Position numbers and translations under genes: made by a program. This document shows, piece after piece, positions 1 through 5,594 of a stretch of 6,560 nt of DNA (the first letter of the stretch is position 1; each line of letters starts with the position of its first letter). The notes below the pieces were generated by a model. It was given only the letters and a program-made list of their open reading frames with translations. It ran no database searches and was not told the origin of the DNA. Source of the stretch: Chloroflexota bacterium (GTDB taxonomy: Bacteria; Chloroflexota; Dehalococcoidia; Plut-88900); the NCBI GenBank assembly GCA_022572865.1, contig JACZVB010000083.1, positions 1 through 6,560 on the forward strand, written 5' to 3'.

Positions 1-1307
1 CCCAGTTCAACTCCCTCCATAGTGACCCAGGGACCCAAGCCCCCAGCTGGTTGCGGAGGATCCGTGAGGAAGCCATCACCCGCTTCAAGGAGACAGGGTT
101 CCCCACTCCCCGTGATGAAGACTGGAAATACACCAACGTCGCCCCCATAGCCAGGGCCAGGTTCGTCCCATCGTGGGAGTGTAGCAACGGCCGCCGGCCC
201 CTGGCCGGGGTCACCGCCTCGACAGCGAAGTCCCACGGGTGGATCGAGCTGGCTTTTGTAGGCGGGGACTTCGCCCCGGCCCTTTCATCGGTGCCTGAAC
301 TGCCCCCAGGGGCCAGGGTCATGAGCCTGGCCTCGGCCCTCGTCCAGGAGGCCGACCTGGTCCAACCCCACCTGGCCCGGTACGCTGATCTCCGAGAGAA
401 CGGCTTCGTGGCCCTCAACACCGCCTTCATCAGGGATGGTGCCTTCATCTACGTGCCCAAAGGCGTTACCCTGGATGCCACGGTCCACATTCTGTTCTCG
501 GCTTCTACAGGCGGCGAGGCCACCGTCTCTTATCCCAGGAACCTGATAATCCTGGCAGAGGGCAGCCGCGCATCGGTAATGGAGAGCTACGAGGGCCCGG
601 GTCAAGGGCCCTATTTCACCAATGCGGTCACCGAGGTGGTCCTGGGCCCCGGGGCCCGGCTGGATTACTACAGGCTCCAGGGTGAGGGGCGGGAAGCCTA
701 CCATGTCAGCGCCACCCGGGTGGAACAGGGTCAGGACAGCCGGTTCACCTCCTTCTACATGGACCTGGGCGGCCGCCTGGGGAGGAATGATCTCAAGGTC
801 TCCCTGGGAGCAGAGGGCGGCTCCTGCAGCCTGAACGGCCTTTACCTGATCGGCGACCAGCAGCATATCGATAATCACACCACCGTAGACCACCAGAGCT
901 CCTTTACTCCCAGCCGGCAGCTTTACAAAGGGATCCTAGATGGGCACTCTCGGGCGGTATTCAACGGGAAGATCATCGCCAGAAAGGGCACACACCAGGT
1001 GGACGCCCATCAGACCAACAAGAACCTTCTGATCTCCGAAGACTCCCAGGTGAGCACGAAGCCCCAGTTAGAGATATTCGCCGATGACCTTAAATGCACC
1101 CACGGGGCCACCGTCGGCCAGCTGGATGAGGAGGCGCTCTTCTACCTGAACAGCCGGGGCATCGGACAGGAAGCGGCACGGCTGTTCCTCACCTACGGTT
1201 TCGCTCAGGGTGTTCTTTCCCAGATCGAGTCCGACGAGATCCGCCGGCTTTTTGAAGGCCTTACCCAGGAGCGGCTTCAGGTCAAGACCAAGGTCCTTAC
1301 TACATGA
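1..1307 (+). CDS. sufD: Fe-S cluster assembly protein SufD (5' partial)
   Basis: SufD is a non-catalytic subunit of the cytosolic SufBCD scaffold, on which Fe-S clusters are built before transfer to apoproteins. The N-terminal block RDEDWKYTN (codons from 111) is typical of SufD rather than SufB. The C-terminal core has KPQLEIFADDLKCTHGAT (from 1059), including the conserved His at 1101-1103, followed by GQLDEEALFYLNSRG, the beta-helix core and C-terminal helices of the SufB/SufD family. A TTG at 51 could be called as start, but the frame is open back to base 3 and reads ...APSWLRRIREEA. That Trp-Leu-Arg segment normally precedes the WKYT block, so the true start lies upstream of the window. 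About 434 residues are visible, close to the usual full length, so little is missing. The stop is TGA at 1305-1307, and sufS follows after 9 bases. Family assignment is firm. Confidence 0.95.
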   Translation, partial: QFNSLHSDPGTQAPSWLRRIREEAITRFKETGFPTPRDEDWKYTNVAPIARARFVPSWECSNGRRPLAGVTASTAKSHGWIELAFVGGDFAPALSSVPELPPGARVMSLASALVQEADLVQPHLARYADLRENGFVALNTAFIRDGAFIYVPKGVTLDATVHILFSASTGGEATVSYPRNLIILAEGSRASVMESYEGPGQGPYFTNAVTEVVLGPGARLDYYRLQGEGREAYHVSATRVEQGQDSRFTSFYMDLGGRLGRNDLKVSLGAEGGSCSLNGLYLIGDQQHIDNHTTVDHQSSFTPSRQLYKGILDGHSRAVFNGKIIARKGTHQVDAHQTNKNLLISEDSQVSTKPQLEIFADDLKCTHGATVGQLDEEALFYLNSRGIGQEAARLFLTYGFAQGVLSQIESDEIRRLFEGLTQERLQVKTKVLTT

Positions 1308-1316
1308 GGAGATGTG

Positions 1317-2591
1317 ATGGCCGGTCCCGCTAAAATCGAAGTCCCAGAGGGGCTGGGAATGCCCCTGGATGAGAGGGCCGTCCAAAAGCTGAGGGAGGAC
1401 TTCCCTATCCTGAAGCAGCTGGTCCATGGGAAGCCCCTGGTGTACCTGGACAACGCCGCCACCAGCCAGAAACCCCGGCAGGTCATCGATGCCATCACCA
1501 ACTATTACGAGTCCTACAACTCCAACGTCCATCGTGGGCTGCACGCGCTGAGCGAGCAGGCCACCCAGGCCTATGAAGGGGCCCGGGGCATCGTCCGGAG
1601 CTTCCTCAACGCCGCGGAGGACAGGGAGATAGTCTTTGTTAAAGGGACCACGGAGGGCATCAATCTGGTCGCCAGCAGCTATGGCAGGGCCCACCTACAA
1701 CAGGGTGATGAGATCATCATATCGGAGATGGAGCACCACTCCAACATCGTCCCGTGGCAGATCCTATGCGAGGAGAAGGGCGCAGTCCTGAGGGTAGTGC
1801 CCTTCAACGACGATGGAGAGCTTCTGCTGGACGAATACGAGAGGATGCTGGGCCCGCGGACCAAGCTGGTATCCATGACCTATATCTCCAATGCCCTGGG
1901 CACGGTGAACCCGGTGAAGAGCATAATCGAGATAGCCCATGAGCGGGGTGTGCCGGTCCTGATAGACGGAGCCCAGGCGGTCCCCCACCGCCCCGTGGAT
2001 GTTCAAGACCTGGATTGCGACTTCTTTGTCTTCTCGAGTCACAAAGTCTTCGGCCCCACTGGCATGGGCATCCTCTATGGGAAAGCCGAAATACTGGACT
2101 CGATGCCTCCCTACCAGGGCGGCGGGGACATGATAAGGTCGGTGACCTTCGAGAAGACCACCTATAACGACTTGCCCTACAAGTTCGAGGCCGGGACCCC
2201 CAACGTGGCCGGGGCCATCGGCCTGGGAGCCGCCCTGGAATACGTCAGCCGGATCGGCATGAACAACATAGCGGAGTACGAGGAGTCGCTTCTCTCCTAT
2301 GCCACCGAAGCCCTGTCCTCCATAGAGGGGGTGCGGATCATAGGCACCGCCAGCCAGAAAGCGGGGGTCCTCTCCTTCCTCCTGGACCAGGTCCACGCCC
2401 ACGACGTGGGCACCGTCCTTGACACCGAGGGTGTAGCCATCCGCACGGGGCACCACTGCGCCCAGCCGGTCATGAAACACTACGGAATCGCGGCCACCGC
2501 CAGGGCGTCCCTGGCCTTCTACAATACCAGAGCGGACATAGATGCCCTGGTGAAGGGCCTGGACAAGGTCATCGAGGTCTTCACTCTATGA
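1317..2591 (+). CDS. sufS: Cysteine desulfurase SufS
   Basis: This is a PLP-dependent group II cysteine desulfurase. It converts L-cysteine to L-alanine and leaves a persulfide on its active-site Cys, supplying sulfur for Fe-S cluster assembly in the cytosol. The 424-residue protein shows YLDNAATSQKP near residue 43, EMEHHSNIVPWQ near 138 (cofactor-stacking His), LIDGAQ near 215 (Asp that contacts the PLP ring), FSSHKVFGPTG with the Schiff-base Lys243 (codon 2043), and RTGHHCAQP with the catalytic Cys381 (codon 2457). The RTGHHC signature separates SufS from IscS/NifS. I chose ATG 1317 over the in-frame GTG 1314 because GAGGAG at 1306-1311 then has 5-base spacing. It lies 9 bases after sufD and overlaps sufU by four bases, so it is co-transcribed and probably translationally coupled. 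The adjacent sufU implies SufU, not SufE, as its sulfur acceptor. Confidence 0.97.
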   Translation: MAGPAKIEVPEGLGMPLDERAVQKLREDFPILKQLVHGKPLVYLDNAATSQKPRQVIDAITNYYESYNSNVHRGLHALSEQATQAYEGARGIVRSFLNAAEDREIVFVKGTTEGINLVASSYGRAHLQQGDEIIISEMEHHSNIVPWQILCEEKGAVLRVVPFNDDGELLLDEYERMLGPRTKLVSMTYISNALGTVNPVKSIIEIAHERGVPVLIDGAQAVPHRPVDVQDLDCDFFVFSSHKVFGPTGMGILYGKAEILDSMPPYQGGGDMIRSVTFEKTTYNDLPYKFEAGTPNVAGAIGLGAALEYVSRIGMNNIAEYEESLLSYATEALSSIEGVRIIGTASQKAGVLSFLLDQVHAHDVGTVLDTEGVAIRTGHHCAQPVMKHYGIAATARASLAFYNTRADIDALVKGLDKVIEVFTL

Positions 2592-3040
2592 ACGATCTCT
2601 CTGACCTGTACCAGCAGGCGGTCCTGGACCACAACAGAAAGCCTCGCAACTTCCGTCGTCTCCCAGACCCCGATGGTACTGCCGAGGGCTACAATCCACT
2701 CTGCGGCGACCTCATCAACGTCGATGTCAAGATGGACGGAGATGTCATCAGGGAGATCGGGTTTGAAGGGGGTGGATGCGCCATCTCCAAAGCCTCCGCC
2801 TCCATGATGACCGAGGTGGTGAAGGGGATGACCAGGGATGAGGCCAGGGAGTTCTTCGACTCCTTCCGCACCGCCGTAACCGAGGGCATCGACTTCTTCG
2901 AGGCGATAGACAAGCTGGGCAAGCTGGCGGCCCTGACCGGCGTCAGTGAGTTCCCGGCCCGGGTCAAGTGCGCGGTGCTGGCCTGGCACACCCTGCGGGC
3001 CGCCCTGGATGGCAACAAGGCCAACGTCACCACGGAGTAA
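2588..3040 (+). CDS. sufU: SufU, sulfur acceptor/relay for SufS
   Basis: SufU is an IscU-fold protein. In Gram-positive-type Suf systems it is a zinc-dependent sulfurtransferase that takes the persulfide from SufS and passes it to the SufBCD scaffold. The 150-residue protein has the expected ligand set: Cys39 and Asp41 in NPLCGD, Cys64 in GGGCAIS and Cys128 in ARVKCAVLAWHT. The gap between the second and third Cys (64 residues) is about 20 longer than in IscU, which is the diagnostic SufU insertion, and there is no IscU-type LPPVK motif. The N-terminus LYQQAVLDHNRKPRNF is also family-typical. The start ATG overlaps the sufS stop as ATGA; a weak GAGGT at 2574-2578 inside sufS may serve as ribosome binding site. 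The stop is TAA. It appears to be the last suf gene, since 329 non-coding bases follow. Confidence 0.96.
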   Translation: MNDLSDLYQQAVLDHNRKPRNFRRLPDPDGTAEGYNPLCGDLINVDVKMDGDVIREIGFEGGGCAISKASASMMTEVVKGMTRDEAREFFDSFRTAVTEGIDFFEAIDKLGKLAALTGVSEFPARVKCAVLAWHTLRAALDGNKANVTTE

Positions 3041-3060
3041 CCGTTTCGACCATCCCCCTG

Positions 3061-3086
3061 TCCCCCTTCCTGGCCAGGAAGGGGGA
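3061..3086. repeat. Perfect 26-base palindrome downstream of sufU
   Basis: The arms TCCCCCTTCCTGG (3061-3073) and CCAGGAAGGGGGA (3074-3086) are exact reverse complements. As RNA this gives an 11-bp stem with a GGCC tetraloop, 20 bases after the sufU stop. No T-run follows, so it is not a classical intrinsic terminator, although it could stabilise or end the suf transcript. It looks like a dispersed intergenic palindrome (REP/MITE-like), but dispersal cannot be shown from one window. Confidence 0.8.
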
Positions 3087-3090
3087 GAAT

Positions 3091-3117
3091 GGGGTTTGGG
3101 GGTGTCCCCCAAACCCC
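3091..3117. repeat. Hairpin repeat, 12-bp stem with 3-base loop
   Basis: GGGGTTTGGGGG (3091-3102) pairs perfectly with CCCCCAAACCCC (3106-3117) around a TGT loop. It starts only 4 bases after the 26-base palindrome, so the two form a double-hairpin module. A degenerate relative of its left arm and loop recurs at 3191-3208 (GGTTTGGGGA then ATCCCCCC). The function is unknown; transcript 3' end protection or a mobile palindromic element are both possible. Confidence 0.75.
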
Positions 3118-3235
3118 CGACAATCCCGACAAGCCGGGACTGTACTCCCCGTTTGGAGGAGCTTATTAAGCGGCTTCAGGGGGAAGAACAGGTTTGGGGA
3201 ATCCCCCCACCCTTCCAGTACTGGAAAGACGCACT

Positions 3236-3355: not shown

Positions 3356-3364
3356 GGAGGAGGT
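3356..3364 (+). promoter_or_regulatory. Ribosome binding site fixing the GTG start at 3370
   Basis: GGAGGAGGT has its AGGAGGT core at 3358-3364, five bases before GTG 3370. The neighbouring paralogue has the same 5-base spacing (AAGGAGGT then five bases then ATG). This near-consensus site fixes the start of the first dehydrogenase and shows that its initiation signals are undamaged. Confidence 0.8.
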
Positions 3365-3496
3365 GACCCGTGAAGGCAGCTGTGATGAGGGAGGCCCATG
3401 CCCCTCTGCAGATCGAGGAAGTGCAGATCGACAAGCCCGGGCCCCGAGAGGTGCTGGTCCGCACCGGCGCTACAGGGGTCTGACACAGCAATCTCC

Positions 3497-3514
3497 ACTA
3501 CCTGGAAGGTAAGT
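3497..3514 (+). other. Small hairpin after the in-frame UGA (weak SECIS-like candidate)
   Basis: UACCU (3499-3503) pairs with AGGUA (3507-3511) around a GGA loop; two further pairs form past a bulged A. The loop begins 20 bases after the UGA at 3481-3483. Bacterial SECIS elements are short coding-region hairpins at about this distance, with a G early in the loop, so the geometry fits. Caution: a 5-bp stem is common by chance. The intact cysteine paralogue has its own small hairpin at the equivalent site (GAG-GGG-CTC, 4647-4655), which weakens the case. Confidence 0.2.
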
Positions 3515-4056
3515 ACCACTGTCCCATGCCGGCGGTCCTGGGGGACGAGGCCGCGGGCACCGTCGAGGCCGTGGGCGAAATGGTGTCCTATGTAAGGCCT
3601 GGGGACCGGGTCATCACCTGCCTCTCGGCCTTTTGCGGGACCTGCGACAAATGCCTGGACGGCCAGCCTGCCCTCTGCCGCAACGGCGGCATGCAGAGGG
3701 AGCCGGGCCAGTCACCCCGCCTGAGCAAGGGTGGAGAGCCGTTCTACCAGTTTTCCGATCTATCCACCTTCGCCGAGTACATGCTCGTCCATGAGAACGC
3801 GACGGTGAAGGTGAGAGATGATGTGCCCATCGAGCAGATAGCGCTCATCGGTTGTGGGGTGACCACCGGAGTGGGTGCGGCGCTGAACACGGCCCGGGTG
3901 AGGCCCGGCAGCACCGTGGCCGTCATCGGGTGCGGGGGCGTCGGCCTCAGCGCGGTGAACGGTGCGGCCATCGCCGGCGCGGGCCGGATCATCGCTATCG
4001 ACACCATGGAGACCAAGCTTTCCATAGCCCTTAAGCTGGGAGCCACCGATATCATA

Positions 4057-4101
4057 GATGCCTCGGGCGGCGGAGTCGTGGAGAAGGTGATGAACCTGAC
4101 C
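4057..4101 (+). repeat. 45-base tract identical between the two dehydrogenases (copy 1)
   Basis: This segment is identical, synonymous sites included, to 5199-5243 in the second dehydrogenase. It begins GATGCCTCGG and ends AACCTGACC, encoding DASGGGVVEKVMNLT. The genes are about 25% different in protein elsewhere, so such tracts suggest gene conversion or strong local constraint and could support recombination between the copies. Confidence 0.8.
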
Positions 4102-4498
4102 CGCGGCCTCGGAGTCGATTACTCCTTCGAGGCCATAGGCCTCAAGGAGACGGCGGAGCAGTCATTCGACATGCTGGACCGGGGCGGCGTGGCCACCATC
4201 ATCGGCATGATACCCGAGGGCACCAAGATCCAGCTCGACGGCCCGTCATTTCTCAAGGAGCGGAAGATTCAGGGGAGCAACATGGGCTCCAACAGGTTCC
4301 GCATCGACATGCCCCGGTACGTCGAGTTCTATCTTCAAGGCCGCTTGAAGCTGGATGAGATAGTGTCTAAGAAGATCAGGTTGGAGGAAGTCAACCAGGC
4401 CTTCGAGGATATGAAGGAAGGGCATGTTGCCCGAAGCGTAATCACCTTCGAATGAGGGCCAGGGCCTTGATAGTCTAGGCTCATTTGCAAAGGGGAAG

Positions 4499-4511: not shown

Positions 4512-5594
4512 ATGAAGGCAGCAGTGATGAGAGAGCCCCACACGCTCCTTGAGATAGAGGAGGTGGAGACAGACAGGCCGGGGCCCCGGGAGGTACTCAT
4601 CCGGACCGGCGCGTCGGGAGTGTGCCACAGCGACCTCCATTATGTCGAGGGGCTCTACACCTGCAAGATGCCCACCATCCTGGGCCACGAGGCCGCGGGC
4701 ACCATCGAGGCGGTGGGGGAGCTGGTCACGTATTTCAGGCCCGGGGACCGGGTCATCACCTGCCTGTCCGTCTTCTGCGGCACCTGTGACAAGTGCCTTA
4801 AAGGCGAGATGGTGAACTGCCGGAGGGTGGGTCTAGTGCGGAGGCCCGACGAACCGCCCCGCCTCCACAAGGGTGACGAGCTTATACACCAGGCCATGAG
4901 TCTCTCCTCCTTCGCTGAGTACATGCTCGTGCATGAGAACGCGGGGGTCAAGGTGGACGACGACGTTCCCATCGAAGTCCAGGCCCTCATCGGTTGCGGC
5001 GTCACCACCGGGGTGGGCGCTGTGCTGAACACGGCGAGGGTCGAGCCCGGAAGCACCGTGGCCATCATCGGGTGTGGGGGCGTCGGCCTCAGCGCGGTGA
5101 ACGGCGCGGCCATCGCCGGCGCGGGCCGGATCATCGCCATCGACGCCGTGGAGGACAAGCTGGCCTTCGCCCAGAAGGTCGGGGCCACCGATGTCATCGA
5201 TGCCTCGGGCGGCGGAGTCGTGGAGAAGGTGATGAACCTGACCGGCGGCCTCGGGGTCGACTACTCCTTCGAGGCCATAGGCAAGAAGGAGACTGCGGAG
5301 CAGGCCTTCGACATGCTGGACAAGGGGGGCACGGCCACCATCATCGGCATGATACCCGAGGGCACCAAGTTCCTGATTGATGGGCCCTCGATCCTGGGAA
5401 GGCATATCCAGGGCAGCAGTATGGGCTCCAACCGGTTCCGCATCGATATGCCCCACTACCTGGAGTTCTATCGCCAGGGCCGCCTGAAACTGGACGAGAT
5501 CATATCCAAGCGGATCAAGCTGGAGGATATCAACGAGGCCTTCGATGATATGCGGGACGCACACCTGGCCCGCAGCGTCATCATGTTCGACTAG
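4512..5594 (+). CDS. Zn-dependent alcohol dehydrogenase, MDR family (class III-like)
   Basis: This is a cytosolic medium-chain dehydrogenase predicted to oxidise an alcohol or reduce an aldehyde with NAD(H). The 360-residue protein has the complete zinc set: catalytic ligands Cys38 (GVCHSD), His59 (GHEAAG) and Cys162 (LIGCGVTTG), and structural ligands Cys89, Cys92, Cys95 and Cys103 (CGTCDKC...C). The Rossmann motif GCGGVG lies near residue 187, and Asp211 in IAID, at the end of the second strand, favours NAD over NADP. The C-terminus resembles class III, NDMA-dependent and mycothiol-linked dehydrogenases, but the true substrate cannot be read from sequence. The start at ATG 4512 is set by a strong ribosome binding site and by alignment with the preceding paralogue. 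The stop is TAG, and an FAD oxidoreductase gene follows after 32 bases. This copy can supply the activity if the upstream copy is dead. Confidence 0.95.
   Translation: MKAAVMREPHTLLEIEEVETDRPGPREVLIRTGASGVCHSDLHYVEGLYTCKMPTILGHEAAGTIEAVGELVTYFRPGDRVITCLSVFCGTCDKCLKGEMVNCRRVGLVRRPDEPPRLHKGDELIHQAMSLSSFAEYMLVHENAGVKVDDDVPIEVQALIGCGVTTGVGAVLNTARVEPGSTVAIIGCGGVGLSAVNGAAIAGAGRIIAIDAVEDKLAFAQKVGATDVIDASGGGVVEKVMNLTGGLGVDYSFEAIGKKETAEQAFDMLDKGGTATIIGMIPEGTKFLIDGPSILGRHIQGSSMGSNRFRIDMPHYLEFYRQGRLKLDEIISKRIKLEDINEAFDDMRDAHLARSVIMFD
5199..5243 (+). repeat. 45-base tract identical between the two dehydrogenases (copy 2)
   Basis: This is the partner of 4057-4101, in direct orientation about 1.14 kb downstream. 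Recombination between the two would fuse the dehydrogenases into one gene and delete the segment between them. Confidence 0.8.

Follow-up and report, generated by a model that had tools for sequence, protein, structure and literature searches.

A putative selenocysteine codon at a catalytic zinc-ligand position in an alcohol dehydrogenase gene of a probable member of the Dehalococcoidia

Introduction

Selenocysteine (Sec) on a catalytic metal is described for formate dehydrogenase and NiFeSe hydrogenase in section 7 of PMC13188914, the metal being molybdenum or tungsten in the formate dehydrogenase alpha subunit and nickel in the hydrogenase. The same source states that there are 119 prokaryotic selenoprotein families and subfamilies, and none of those named in its available portions is an alcohol dehydrogenase (ADH) or another MDR enzyme. 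No report of a Sec alcohol dehydrogenase was found in the literature searched on Sec together with ADHs or medium-chain dehydrogenases, including the available portions of PMC13188914, PMC12013277, PMC9312934, PMC5424206, PMC7176365, and PMC5736913.

The gene described here, adhU, has the ADH_N and ADH_zinc_N domains, the structural-zinc Cys quartet and the catalytic-site order of the zinc MDR ADHs (class I/III, and the TIGR03451 S-(hydroxymethyl)mycothiol, TIGR03989 NDMA-dependent, and TIGR02818 models), but differs from them in having UGA (or Sec) for the first zinc ligand, Asp for His67 and Asn for Asp49. Zinc is not redox-active. The proposed Sec of adhU would resemble that of the Mo/W-Sec and Ni-Sec enzymes in its place on the catalytic metal, whereas the fold is another one and the metal would be zinc. 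Three full-length dehydrogenases with HSN and GDE motifs (P0018, P0019, and P0053) share Asn41, Asp59 and clade membership with adhU, and have Cys where adhU has UGA; the adjoining paralogue, adhC, which is 76% identical to adhU and lies in the same neighborhood, has the canonical Cys/His/Cys set and no UGA. Both genes lie in a window of 6,560 nucleotides (the whole stretch of DNA analyzed here), the host of which is probably an uncultured bacterium of the class Dehalococcoidia (Chloroflexota). The original prediction had raised the Sec reading as a doubtful one; the present analysis supports it, and we consider it very likely that the UGA of adhU is read as Sec and does not mark gene decay.

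Locus Organization and Reading Frame

The window carries sufD, sufS and sufU, two tandem MDR dehydrogenase genes and the start of an FAD/amine-oxidase-type gene, in this order and as assigned with Pfam (Table 1); the last is presumably a phytoene dehydrogenase-like gene. A palindromic GC-rich repeat (CCCCCTTCCTGG/CCAGGAAGGGGG) occupies positions 3054-3093 and 3080-3209, between sufU and adhU.

TABLE 1. Features of the adhU locus, with coordinates counted from the first nucleotide of the window.
Feature	Position	Strand	Basis
sufD (incomplete at the window edge), sufS and sufU, upstream of adhU	3..3040	+	Pfam; sufD comparison with G008
Shine-Dalgarno sequence of adhU, AGGAGGTGA	3358..3366	+	anti-SD duplex energy
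adhU, zinc-type MDR alcohol dehydrogenase frame of 361 codons with UGA as codon 38	3370..4455	+	ORF list; Pfam
In-frame UGA, proposed Sec codon	3481..3483	+	alignment to 1ht0 (human class I ADH), residue Cys46
Codon 41 of adhU, Asn (Asp49 in 1ht0 numbering)	3490..3492	+	alignment to 1ht0
Possible SECIS hairpin with a GGA loop 20 nt past the UGA and a 7-bp stem that has one bulge	3497..3514	+	weak, no better than chance
ATG, codon 53, first ATG past the UGA and start of the database version P0001	3526..3528	+	database protein comparison
Codon 59 of adhU, Asp (His67 in 1ht0 numbering)	3544..3546	+	alignment to 1ht0
Four Cys (codons 89, 92, 95, and 103) of the adhU structural-zinc lobe, intact	3634..3678	+	CCCC in 145/145 aligned proteins
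Codon 162 of adhU, Cys of IGCGV; by homology the third ligand of the catalytic zinc	3853..3855	+	alignment
adhC, tandem Cys paralogue of adhU, ATG to TAG, with GVCHSD and GHE	4512..5594	+	76% identical to adhU

The original prediction had placed an in-frame TGA at codon 38 of adhU, where adhC has TGC (in GVCHSD), within a frame that is otherwise open and that retains its start and ribosome binding site, and the locus agrees with each of these points. The TGA at codon 38 is the sole in-frame stop between the GTG start at 3370 and the terminal TGA at 4453-4455, and the anti-SD duplex at GTG 3370 (-13.4 kcal/mol) is the strongest among six starts tested, with that at ATG 3526 (-3.9 kcal/mol) being the weakest. 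The read-through frame matches PF08240 (ADH_N, residues 24-149) with 87.6 bits and PF00107 (ADH_zinc_N) with 97.6 bits, and homology to dehydrogenases is present on both sides of the UGA. Since UGA is also the normal stop of sufD and sufS, as had been pointed out, a change of genetic code does not account for the interruption.

Between adhU and adhC, codons 1-37 have a dN of 0.133 and a dS of 1.318; conservation is lower in codons 39-52 (dN of 0.351 over 14 codons). When adhU is compared with five relatives from other genomes, dN is 0.18-0.26 for codons 1-52 and 0.20-0.24 for codons 53-361. The ratio of identity in codons 1-52 to that in codons 53-361 is 0.977 for adhU and 0.97 for adhC; in 132 full-length homologues the median ratio is 0.97. 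Given this N-terminal constraint and the strong anti-SD pairing at GTG 3370, the part of adhU before the UGA is therefore translated in frame still, or was until recently.

Zinc Ligand Positions

Codons 38, 41, and 59 of adhU align with Cys46, Asp49, and His67 of the solved human ADH 1ht0; Cys46 and His67 are ligands of the catalytic zinc, and Asp49 belongs to its second shell. The Cys at codon 162 corresponds by homology to Cys174, the third catalytic zinc ligand. At residue 41 adhU has HSN instead of HSD, and at residue 59 it has GDE; the positions of the Cys-His-Cys catalytic zinc set of the class I/III enzymes hold UGA, Asp, and Cys. An Asn41 in place of the acidic second-shell residue would fit an acidic ligand at position 59. 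The NCBIfam scores of adhC, and of adhU after codon 52, are below every listed cut-off and thereby do not fix the subfamily, and structure prediction from an alignment gave a poor model (mean pLDDT of 50.9).

Homologous Proteins

The homologue set is the union of three lists, each comprising the best 120 of about 8000 matches, and contains 153 predicted proteins. Codon 38 is covered in 144 of the 153 proteins listed, all 144 of which have Cys there, and nine do not cover it. In a tree built from the sequence after codon 52, the supports along the nested path to adhU range from 0.757 (the whole ten-member clade) up to 0.999, and the clade recurs in a larger tree with a support of 0.855. Its non-Cys members, among the matches listed, are the window's own protein (P0001, a cluster of eight member sequences), P0002 (97% identity), P0108 (84%), P0122 and P0121 (77% each), and P0123 (76%). 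The presence of P0002, a separate cluster (from ncbi) that starts at the same codon 53, makes it extremely unlikely that base 3483 was misread in sequencing or misassembled.

All six of these proteins, the window's own included, begin past codon 38: four at codon 53, one at codon 48, and one at codon 71, and there is therefore no conserved internal start in the clade. The part before codons 48-71 is missing in 6/6 non-Cys proteins of the Asn/Asp clade versus 3/147 of the others listed, a difference that looks to be beyond chance, in a comparison of sequences related by descent in which the six include the window's own protein. N-terminally short sequences were also part of the query in two of the three underlying searches, once as the query itself and once as members of a query alignment, and the Fisher value of the comparison thus serves only as a guide. 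Synthesis of a short enzyme from the internal ATG at codon 53 might be proposed from the fact that this codon begins four of the six non-Cys clade clusters among the matches listed, but the weak ribosome-binding site (-3.9 versus -13.4 kcal/mol), the variable position of the start (48, 53, 71), the coding constraint that persists over codons 1-52, and the loss of a piece that holds part of ADH_N (24-149) and a zinc-ligand position make this very unlikely.

Nested inside the adhU clade are P0018, P0019, and P0053, which are full-length Cys proteins with GVCHSN and GDE; the remaining 141 listed Cys proteins have Asp41 and His59. Among the matches listed, Asp59 is accompanied by Asn41 in each of the three full-length Cys relatives that bear it. 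The suggestion that GDE marks this paralogue was thus borne out by the Asp59 and Asn41 common to these proteins, and Asp59 is therefore characteristic of the subfamily rather than a mark of decay. The original prediction had also called for a search of GDE-type homologues for a conserved TGA at codon 38. Five further protein clusters look interrupted there, and that the codon is TGA is something that we infer from where the predicted proteins begin. On that ground, the UGA may be conserved in divergent relatives.

These relatives also bear on whether adhU is a young pseudogene, broken by a nonsense mutation and with its function covered by the adjoining adhC. Proteins down to 76-77% identity are without the same N-terminal part and are conserved in the rest, so that a nonsense break would be old or repeated, and the window copy has no other stop in 361 codons; these observations make decay improbable, even though one substitution (TGC to TGA) would suffice, the tandem paralogue is intact, the SECIS candidate (see below) is not significant, and conservation upstream of the stop would also persist if the break were very recent.

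Three proteins of the His59 type (GHE) outside the clade, P0124, P0127, and P0128, are also without everything before codon 53, and a start at this codon is therefore not specific on its own. Their genes might likewise contain a UGA, or the proteins may simply be truncated; P0124 is basal to the adhC-like clade, and its longest contig is of equal length (3,211,320 bp) to those of P0121 and P0118. Another protein, P0003 (363 aa), is adhC-like over its first three quarters and adhU-like at its end, and is either the product of recombination between the tandem genes or a chimera of the assembly.

For genome searches, adhU or the later portion of it served as the query; they covered the family, order, class, and phylum of genome G001, the order to which G008 belongs, and the class of G803, at E-value limits from 1e-60 to 1e-160 and, in the large searches, with few candidates scored per genome. 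Among the 127 match rows (1,435 genome looks in overlapping samples), none was an interrupted adhU homologue with an internal stop, and HSN and GDE were both absent from the 56 motif-bearing contexts in the homologue loci retrieved from genomes. No adhU homologue was found in the viral collection.

Selenocysteine Insertion Element and Machinery

The bacterial SECIS model in the available portions of PMC13188914 is a hairpin 16-37 nt after the UGA, with G in the first two loop positions and an MFE of -7.5 or lower, and the same text allows that some bacterial elements escape the model. The candidate hairpin of adhU fits the topology published there (Figure 2 legend), but at -3.0 kcal/mol it falls short of the energy limit. 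Among 500 shuffles, 53% gave a hairpin at least as stable, as did 17 of 46 Cys homologues; the folding z-score is +1.26, and the hairpin plus a lower 4-bp stem reaches -4.2, where the 47-nt stretch has an MFE of -5.8. The hairpin is weak, and we count it as no evidence. Reading of the UGA as an amino acid other than Sec, by a near-cognate or suppressor tRNA, would need no SECIS, and none here is convincing; it is nevertheless highly improbable, given that UGA terminates sufD, sufS and adhU itself, that codon 38 is Cys in all 144 covering homologues among the matches listed, and that SelA and SelB are encoded in the nearest genome of the set searched.

This nearest genome, G008, has a SufD 95% identical over 434 aa, and was the only one of 353 genomes (class of G001) to pass E 1e-140 for SufD; it is also the sole genome of its order in the set searched. 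The original prediction had named selA, selB, selC, and selD as genes that should accompany a Sec codon, and the first two are present in G008: its SelA scores 538 bits versus a family cut-off of 267.9, and its SelB (620 aa) comprises a GTPase, a beta-barrel, and two winged-helix domains. In seven genomes of the class, including G008, SelA is over the cut-off in 7/7 and SelB in 6/7. Both proteins seem common in the Dehalococcoidia-class genomes G001, G008, G417, G440, G803, G837, and G905, and Sec formate dehydrogenases from deep-sea Chloroflexi are reported in the available portions of PMC5736913.

The other two genes were not recovered from G008. No tRNA-Sec was found over the cut-off in this fragmented assembly, and the best five of its eleven sub-threshold matches, on inspection, were tRNA-Arg, tRNA-Ser, and tRNA-Gly; a tRNA-Sec was found in 7/8 other genomes searched, from the order of G001. 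ARAGORN identified tRNA-Sec with the anticodon UCA in 7/9 loci, each from a different genome, and tRNA-Ser in the remaining two. No tRNA-Sec lies beside selA or selB in seven loci or in L112. For selD, a motif scan found none in 63 G008 loci, which together span 286,154 bases, or in six loci from elsewhere in the genome set.

The sufDSU contig of G008 ends right after sufU, most of the 60 contigs examined are 2-3 kb long, and adhU itself was not found in this fragmented assembly. A GC-rich stretch similar to the repeat of the window lies at the end of G008 contig C320 (end of L103), and may explain why C320 stops there.

Proposed Catalytic Site and Implications

In the mechanism that we propose, the UGA at codon 38 of adhU would be decoded as Sec by SelA, SelB and tRNA-Sec, and Sec38 would take the place of the first catalytic zinc ligand (Cys46 of liver ADH). 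The predicted site comprises Sec38, Asp59, and Cys162 around the zinc, with Asn41 in the second shell, and the zinc would be the Lewis acid in the conversion of an alcohol or aldehyde, together with NAD(P)(H). Insertion of Sec, binding of zinc by Sec, and the use of NAD(P) and of an alcohol or aldehyde are all inferred. With moderate confidence, we favor the view that adhU encodes a natural selenoenzyme in which Sec is a ligand of catalytic zinc in an ADH fold, as part of a subfamily with a rebuilt zinc site (His67 to Asp, Asp49 to Asn, and Sec or Cys at Cys46).

If this is true, adhU would represent a new selenoprotein family inside an enzyme superfamily that is among the best studied. Molybdenum, tungsten, and nickel are known to have Sec as a ligand, and its occurrence at a redox-inert zinc would ask what selenium offers beyond redox chemistry. 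Because the subfamily has both a Sec and a Cys form, and a canonical paralogue adjoins adhU, this question is directly testable. Gene prediction would start such proteins past the UGA, and would thereby hide the family in databases.
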